This document shows positions 44,012 to 44,873 of a DNA stretch of 64,000 nt, piece by piece. The position numbers were made by a program, and so were the translations under genes. Location of the stretch: assembly GCA_017546165.1 (NCBI GenBank), contig JAFYXL010000025.1, forward strand, positions 62,001 to 126,000. Direction: 5' to 3'. Numbering within the stretch: position 1 is the stretch's first letter; each line of letters begins with the position of its first letter. The notes below the pieces were generated by a model. The model had not been told where the DNA came from, ran no database searches, and worked only from the letters and a program-made list of their open reading frames with translations. Origin of the DNA: Clostridia bacterium. Lineage in GTDB: Bacteria; Bacillota; Clostridia; Monoglobales; Monoglobaceae.

Positions 44012-44422
44012 ATGAAGACAAATGAATCTGTTGAAAACTATCTGGAAACCATACTTACCCTTTATCACAAAAACGGTCACGTCCGCAGTATAGACATCGC
44101 ACACGAACTTTCATTCTCCAAGCCCAGTGTATCTGTTGCTATGAAAAATTTGCGTGAAAAAAACTACATAAATATAGACGAAGGCGGAAACATCACACTT
44201 ACAAAGGAAGGACTCCAAATCGCCGAAGGGATATATGAACGGCATCAGATTATTGCAACAGCACTTATGGCTCTGGGTGTTGATGAAAAAACTGCTTTTG
44301 AAGACAGTTGCAAAATTGAACACGTTATAAGTGAAAATAGCTTTGAAAAAATAAAGGAACATTTAAAAAAATATAACTCTCCCCGCTCGCGTTCAGGCGA
44401 TATTGATGTTGTTCTTCTATAA
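44012..44422 (+). CDS. DtxR/MntR-family metal-dependent regulator
   Basis: A 136-residue repressor: an N-terminal winged helix (VENYLETILTLY, recognition helix near SKPSVSVAMKNL) and a dimerisation domain with metal-site candidates ERHQII and CKIEHVIS. The first MntR ligand Asp is replaced by Asn in ENYLE, which is common in clostridial members. There is no SH3-like third domain, so it is MntR-like in size. No metal transporter is adjacent. TTGAGGT lies 8 nt before the ATG. Confidence 0.87.
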   Translation: MKTNESVENYLETILTLYHKNGHVRSIDIAHELSFSKPSVSVAMKNLREKNYINIDEGGNITLTKEGLQIAEGIYERHQIIATALMALGVDEKTAFEDSCKIEHVISENSFEKIKEHLKKYNSPRSRSGDIDVVLL

Positions 44423-44487: not shown

Positions 44488-44510
44488 ATATATCGCAAGG
44501 CAAACTTCAT

Positions 44511-44543
44511 CAAAAAAAGCACTTCCGAATAAGTGCTTTTTTC
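44511..44543. terminator. Second hairpin, terminator-like
   Basis: Stem AAAAAGCACTT / AAGTGCTTTTT with A and T runs on either side, so it can act in both directions. It stands between the regulator terminator and the palindromic repeat element. Confidence 0.7.
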
Positions 44544-44578
44544 TGGGAAAGCCGAACCATAGAGATATTTATTTTCTG

Positions 44579-44751
44579 TCGATATGCAAACTTCGTTCGC
44601 TCGATATTTTTGTTTTCACAAAATCGATATGTTTTCTCTTCGCTCAAACTCGATATGCTATAAATCTCGTTGCGTTAGCGACATATCGAGTGCGCAGCAC
44701 ATATCGAATCATTTATGACATATCGAAAATCGCGCAAGAGATTTATATCGA
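44579..44751. repeat. Palindromic element: four TCGATATG units then four inverted CATATCGA units
   Basis: Copies in forward orientation begin at 44579, 44601 (TCGATATT), 44624 and 44650; inverted copies begin at 44682, 44700, 44719 and 44744 (TATATCGA). Most spacers of 10-19 bp between neighbours are themselves small inverted repeats, such as GTGC-GCA-GCAC, TCAT-TT-ATGA and AAATC...GATTT. The whole could fold as one long cruciform or a string of hairpins. It has no credible coding frame. It lies between two sets of terminators next to tRNA-Leu. I take it to be a non-coding interspersed repeat, perhaps a MITE-like or REP-like element. Confidence 0.75.
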
Positions 44752-44753
44752 TG

Positions 44754-44788
44754 AAAAAGCGACTTGTCGAAACAAGTCGCTTTTTCTG
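44754..44788 (-). terminator. Terminator of tRNA-Leu
   Basis: Stem AAAAAGCGACTTG / CAAGTCGCTTTTT with a 6-base loop, directly after the tRNA 3' end on the minus strand. Confidence 0.88.
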
Positions 44789-44873
44789 GTGCCGGTGATC
44801 GGGGTCGAACCGATACGGTATCACTACCACAGGATTTTGAGTCCAGCGCGTCTGCCAATTCCACCACACCGGC
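44787..44873 (-). tRNA. tRNA-Leu(CAA)
   Basis: Class II tRNA with a long variable arm. Acceptor GCCGGTG pairs with CACCGGC, anticodon loop CTCAAAA gives CAA, and CCA is encoded. The anticodon stem CTGGA/TCCTG has one T-T mismatch. Confidence 0.93.

Follow-up and report, generated by a model that had tools for sequence, protein, structure and literature searches.

The window, a stretch of 64,000 nucleotides from the metagenome-assembled genome (MAG) of a Clostridia bacterium, contains a palindromic array whose parts are collected in Table 1. Read on the minus strand, a tRNA-Leu gene is followed by a hairpin with a T tract, the array, a 35-nt tail and a second terminator-like hairpin (44543–44513). 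A nucleotidyltransferase gene lies beyond the tRNA, and the plus-strand neighbour (44012–44422) encodes an iron-dependent repressor of the DtxR/MntR type. Neither Rfam nor ARAGORN gave an rRNA match around the array, which therefore does not lie within a 23S rRNA gene; among the curated families of Rfam 15, the only significant match at the locus is to tRNA. No open reading frame (ORF) lies inside the array, nor does this copy carry an S23p (PF05635) ORF.

Table 1. Features of the array, the insert around it and its borders in the window.
Feature	Position	Strand	Remark
tRNA-Leu(CAA)	44787–44873	−	ARAGORN, Rfam; encoded CCA end is the insert border
Probable whole insert, from behind the tRNA CCA to ...GCTTTCCCA	44544–44786	−	
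15-bp perfect hairpin with T tract, terminator-like, at the insert 5′ end	44753–44786	−	
Palindromic array, four TCGATAT and four ATATCGA with seven spacers, mostly hairpins	44579–44751	−	
Right arm (plus-strand), exact ATATCGA at 44683, 44701, 44720 and 44745	44683–44751	+	
Right-arm hairpins: GTGC..GCAC, TCATTTATGA, AAATC..GATTT	44683–44751	+	
Centre: hairpin and strand complementary to the outermost hairpin (TATAAATCTC / GAGATTTATA)	44657–44682	−	Alternative pairing, covaries in the family
Left arm (plus-strand), exact TCGATAT at 44579, 44601, 44624 and 44650	44579–44656	+	
Left-arm hairpins between heptamers: GCAAAC..GTTYGC-type, TTTTG..CAAAA, GTTTT..AAAC	44579–44656	+	
3′ tail CAGAAAATAAATATCTCTATGGTTCGGCTTTCCCA, common to other tRNA-type units	44544–44578	−	35 nt, ends GCTTTCCCA
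Second terminator-like hairpin behind the insert	44513–44542	−	

The limits of the insert are inferred from comparison with the array-free tRNA-Leu of a diverged congener (G005) and from the same tail found behind or before other copies. An earlier note on this DNA had given 44579–44751 as the extent of the element; this holds for the array, but the insert is longer, since the 5′ hairpin terminator and the 3′ tail also belong to it. The second hairpin either terminates the host tRNA or marks where another unit, now decayed, begins; the start of another locus (L328) is similar to it.

The array is symmetrical about a centre near 44667. Its units had been described as octamers (TCGATATG/CATATCGA); the heptamer core is exact at all eight positions, but the full octamer at only six, the second and the eighth deviating at the last base. 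The octamer occurs eight times in the whole window against 1.31 matches expected by chance, and none of 100 shuffles reached eight, which places the arrangement above the chance level against which the earlier note had proposed to compare it. Elsewhere in the window, no 300-nt stretch contains an inverted 6-mer array of equal strength. As a single strand the array folds far below shuffled sequence, both as RNA (z = −5.80) and as DNA (z = −5.75), and the predicted DNA fold is herringbone-like, with heptamers paired in nested order and spacers branching off. The array is thus as real as had been proposed, with nested symmetry, hairpin spacers and no gene. It was also rightly set apart from CRISPR, with 7-nt units, inverted halves and hairpin spacers in place of direct repeats of 23–50 nt and unique spacers. 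A literature search by octamer returned noise.

The array is a member of a dispersed family, a conclusion that is well supported. At least five copies lie in the window MAG (1.34 Mb in 54 contigs, 88% complete), a strict three-separator pattern matched in 9 of 59 relatives besides the window genome with zero control matches, and a scan of 84,980 species genomes returned 91 stretches with the array pattern. Among the matches listed, all hosts are Clostridia, Oscillospiraceae or Eubacteriales MAGs except for two chance-like matches in other phyla; many of these MAGs carry names from the ruminant hind gut. All host genomes of the family are MAGs, and the viral contigs scanned gave no match. The search for octamer pairs through the genome and its relatives that had been suggested earlier therefore finds, instead of a single copy, an array dispersed in its own genome, with about 90 further copies in ruminant hind-gut Clostridia. 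At L110, L136, L040, L088 and L118 a TCGATAT element is joined, precisely at its 3′ end, by an element of another separator family (AGCTAA, TGAATTG, GCGATAT), which amounts to tandem insertion at a recreated target.

Judged from the sequences of 66 non-identical complete copies, the paired spacers covary. The heptamer separators are nearly invariant, and the spacers are variable but complementary: Watson–Crick pairs fill 1942 of 2093 end-pair cells, the other cells coming mostly from spacer H5, where the symmetric pairing used falls out of register. The first four pairs of H2 and H3 are 95% Watson–Crick, compared with 61–62% when the 3′ halves were dealt among copies. The centre is the complement of the 5′ strand of the outermost hairpin in 59 of the 66 copies (shuffled maximum 39), and this complementarity spans the sequence types AAATCT, GAATTC, AAATCC and AAATTC. 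G·U pairs are rare and show no overall excess over A·C mismatches (25 versus 18, p = 0.36), a pattern unlike that expected from selection on RNA; in the downstream half alone there is a small asymmetry (14 versus 2). Selection on the array at the RNA level was dropped for want of an overall G·U excess.

Insertion into defined sites is likewise well supported. A tRNA gene lies within 400 nt of 7 of the 93 copies, the copy always being downstream of the tRNA and in the same orientation. Copies of a large second class start directly behind TATAAT; TTG stands exactly 17 nt upstream of this motif in 30 of 49 such promoter-type copies (background 8.4%), and many of these copies also have TATAAT at the end of the tail. 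Array-free counterparts exist for both kinds of target. In congener G005 the orthologous tRNA-Leu, which lies near a nucleotidyltransferase 84% identical to that neighbouring the window tRNA, passes directly into its own terminator without an array, and the promoter of a yitT-like gene is uninterrupted in G001, G003 and G007 and holds the element exactly behind its −10 box in the window genome (G000). The empty sites for which the earlier note had advised looking are thus found, at targets (tRNA 3′ ends and promoter −10 boxes) that it had not recognized. The downstream gene is co-oriented with the array in 71 of 88 cases (p = 5 × 10−9), a bias that results from target specificity, that is, insertion behind −10 boxes and tRNA ends. 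A 5′-UTR regulator had been considered as its cause and was replaced by target specificity after insertion behind the −10 box had been seen. By inserting exactly there, the element can parasitise host promoters. At the dus locus (L213 and L214) a TCGATAT element lies between promoter and dus in both G000 and G001 with different 3′ tails, reflecting either independent insertions or tail exchange at one site.

Where an earlier expectation had been a transposase recognising the array ends, the associated gene turned out to be S23, and its linkage with the arrays is well supported. At least 9 of the 93 copies have, directly behind the array, an ORF with a ribosome-binding site, about 120 aa long and truncated in a few. 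It encodes a four-helix-bundle S23 protein that matches Pfam PF05635 (23S_rRNA_IVP, E = 3.5 × 10−21) and the solved protein 2RLD (E = 2 × 10−23). Among clostridial S23 genes of the GTSIGAN type, 53 of 100 have an exact inverted 6-mer array in the 300-nt 5′ flank, against 3 of 150 other genes in the same test (Fisher p = 1 × 10−22). S23 genes of the IPAN type in Bacillota have strong inverted arrays in 0 of 53 cases, and a plain lag-7 direct-repeat test gives them a weak excess (4 of 53 versus 5 of 312). The arrays at S23 genes of relatives are built from other separators, among them GCGATAT, AGCTAAA, TGAAATA, TGAATTG, GTGATAT, GTGAAGT, ATGAAGC and more, and these genes often stand directly behind a tRNA or tmRNA; the survey used simple ORF calling, with some separator labels given by rule. 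No S23 was detected in array-bearing G001 and G056 or in the window genome, a MAG in which absence is no proof. Period-7 direct repeats (for example CTAGTAA and CAGGAGATAGGAGT) lie just upstream of S23 at the IPAN-type loci L168, L169, L177, L181, L184 and L192. At L053 and L090 the order is Y arm, S23 ORF, X arm: the two arms flank the ORF, which elsewhere follows the complete palindrome, as if the element were circularly permuted.

Separator and S23 clade co-segregate on a maximum-likelihood tree of 51 S23 proteins, where 13 separator changes suffice (minimum 11, shuffled 34.4), a count that correction should reduce, since the ATTCAT labels of L291, L298 and L302 were lumped with TGAATTG by a substring rule. 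The TCGATAT and GCGATAT clades are sisters. The AGCTAAA clade unites many host families on very short branches, which points to horizontal transfer.

We consider it probable that the window feature represents the array of a non-autonomous member, lacking S23, of an S23 mobile-element family, and that S23 recognises the array and helps to move it. The earlier guess of a non-autonomous mobile element gains support here from the dispersed copies and the array-free sites. A full element would run from a 5′ hairpin through four heptamers, the centre and four reverse-complement heptamers to a ribosome-binding site, the S23 ORF (sometimes with a cargo ORF) and the 3′ tail. Its orientation is fixed, and it inserts immediately after either the CCA end of a tRNA or the −10 box of a promoter, where transcription from the host could read into it. 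In its single-stranded form the heptamers would pair in nested order, with the spacers branching off as hairpins. The family, the covariation, the insertion contexts, the S23 linkage and the co-segregation are seen in the sequences. We infer that S23, of which a solved relative forms a five-fold toroid, would bind the heptamer array of its own element, more probably in the form of DNA than of RNA. The element encodes no DNA-cutting enzyme. Solo arrays, the window copy included, would be moved in trans by S23 encoded elsewhere, together with a recombinase or host function.

Other readings account for parts of these observations. It is possible, though unlikely, that arrays, S23 genes and many small ORFs are integron-like cassettes, all closed by a shared 3′ site (GCATCTAAA... 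and variants) and mobilised by a single site-specific recombinase, S23 with its array being merely one kind of cargo. The tail motif occurs at 31 sites in congener G007 (0 for a control pattern), in tandem behind small co-oriented ORFs. Of 96 distinct tail sites, 23 lie behind an array and 50 behind an ORF, in the latter case with a mode of 41–45 nt from the stop codon. Two genera share one ORF unit at about 97% identity over 515 nt, its neighbours differing between them. In some of these genomes, co-oriented units stand in tandem and share a 3′ site, much as integron gene cassettes do, but the insertion points here are many and dispersed, and a regex scan of the fetched loci found no recombinase, including IntI-type integrase. 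The stem at the tail site is at or near the shuffled level in length, with a slight excess in one of four site types; the site is thus at most marginally palindromic, and an attC-like palindrome was dropped as an explanation of it. Arrays and S23 are, to our knowledge, not known from integrons, and the cassette explanation leaves unaccounted for both a heptamer array that tracks the S23 clade and the S23 heptamers of other phyla. The co-orientation with downstream genes, the very stable RNA fold and the alternative pairing of outer hairpin and centre would also suit a cis-acting RNA, with the array transcribed as a structured part of a UTR that serves regulation or RNA stability. This we judge improbable, as orientation is explained by insertion behind −10 boxes and tRNA ends, G·U pairs do not exceed A·C mismatches overall despite the asymmetry of the downstream half, the genes adjoining arrays are mutually unrelated and the window copy sits behind a terminator. 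The RNA-stability element of the earlier note is less supported.

A REP/REPIN-like or IS200/IS605-like palindrome moved in trans by a Y1 (HUH) transposase is very improbable: the hairpin-rich single strand would fit, as would the constant orientation behind a short target found again at the 3′ end, and Y1 genes are present in G000 and G005, but none was found in the array-bearing draft genomes G001, G007, G009, G042 and G049, and the gene linked to the arrays is S23. Y1 was consequently dropped as an obligatory partner. A reverse transcriptase was dropped as mobiliser in the same way, none being found in G000–G009, G042 and G049, drafts of array-rich genomes of the genus. Strict conservation of the heptamers would be expected if a nucleoid or chromosome-organising protein bound the array in the service of the host, another earlier proposal; the patchy distribution, the insertion differences between congeners with their array-free sites and the linkage to S23 make it the remotest of these readings.

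Several known systems are close to the family. It shares with the intervening sequences (IVSs) of 23S rRNA genes that carry an S23p ORF in Coxiella and Leptospira, considered selfish, the protein family PF05635 and insertion in a stable-RNA context. In Coxiella, three to four tandem GACAGAT heptamers immediately precede the S23p start (PMC4990558), and the family copies that carry S23 likewise have heptamers directly 5′ of the ORF. In contrast to these IVSs, the family lies outside rRNA genes, behind promoters and tRNAs, has inverted arrays with hairpin spacers in many dispersed copies, and mostly lacks the S23 ORF, as in the window. REP, BIME and REPIN sequences with their RAYT (Y1) transposase are likewise short palindromes dispersed between genes, with mobilisation presumed to occur in trans, but they lack the herringbone of eight separators and the fixed targets seen here, where the draft genomes showed no link to Y1. 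Like MITEs, these are short non-autonomous copies of an ORF-bearing relative with inverted repeats; unlike them, they have neither a DDE transposase relative nor a classic terminal inverted repeat with target duplication, and the ORF-bearing relatives of the window array encode S23, sometimes plus a cargo ORF. The TAACTGA repeats of Beggiatoaceae and other period-7 repeats of cyanobacteria are similarly abundant intergenic heptamers; those of Beggiatoaceae were reported as direct repeats, for which a post-transcriptional role was proposed, without mention of S23 (PMC4679880).

S23 genes on plasmids of Nostoc, Dolichospermum, Treponema and Bernardetia are, in 10 of 10 cases, preceded by period-7 repeats and followed by the same or a similar heptamer in reverse complement (AATTCGC/GCGAATT, GGAAGTC/GACTTCC and GGAGGTC/GACCTCC, for example), although several of the Nostoc cases are closely related and the independent cases number fewer than 10. 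Lag-7 self-match reaches 0.8 on at least one side in 6 of the 10, compared with 0 of 770 random windows; the arrays of the remaining 4 are shorter and were judged by eye. With only a weak lag-7 excess in IPAN-type S23, a wider connection of S23 with heptamers rests on these plasmid cases and on the published Coxiella IVS. We give an even chance to the proposal that S23/four-helix-bundle proteins throughout Bacteria are sequence-specific partners of heptamer arrays and form with them a class of mobile element without a known nuclease of its own. Its footprints would be the period-7 intergenic repeats of cyanobacteria, Bacteroidota, spirochaetes and Clostridia together with the rRNA IVSs, and the window element would be an ORF-less member with hairpin-spaced heptamers. 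For decades S23 has been annotated as a ribosomal or intervening-sequence protein without a function, and period-7 intergenic repeats have stood without an explanation. The two now come side by side, with the separator tracking the S23 clade and solo arrays spread in the same genome group, and S23 function becomes directly testable through heptamer binding and array movement. S23 shares the fold of Avd, the accessory protein of diversity-generating retroelements.

Some further features of these loci deserve mention. At the plasmid loci (L366–L375) the S23 gene is flanked by a period-7 repeat on one side and by its reverse complement on the other, in three phyla other than that of Clostridia. 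Most cassette proteins tested had no Pfam match or a general match only, and Rfam gave one T-box in the related loci. L356 (G007:C9:53000-57976), L358 and L359 carry integron-like tandem cassettes of small co-oriented ORFs, mostly of no assigned function, each followed by TTTTTAGTCCTAACTTGACACGAACT...GCATCTAAACCTTATGTGTCGCAAT, and the same cassette recurs in different genera in changed order. Finally, the stretch 44490–44543 of the window, behind the insert, holds a terminator-like hairpin and then, on the minus strand, GATGAAGTTTGCCTTGCGATAT; together they resemble the beginning of a different, second array unit that has decayed.
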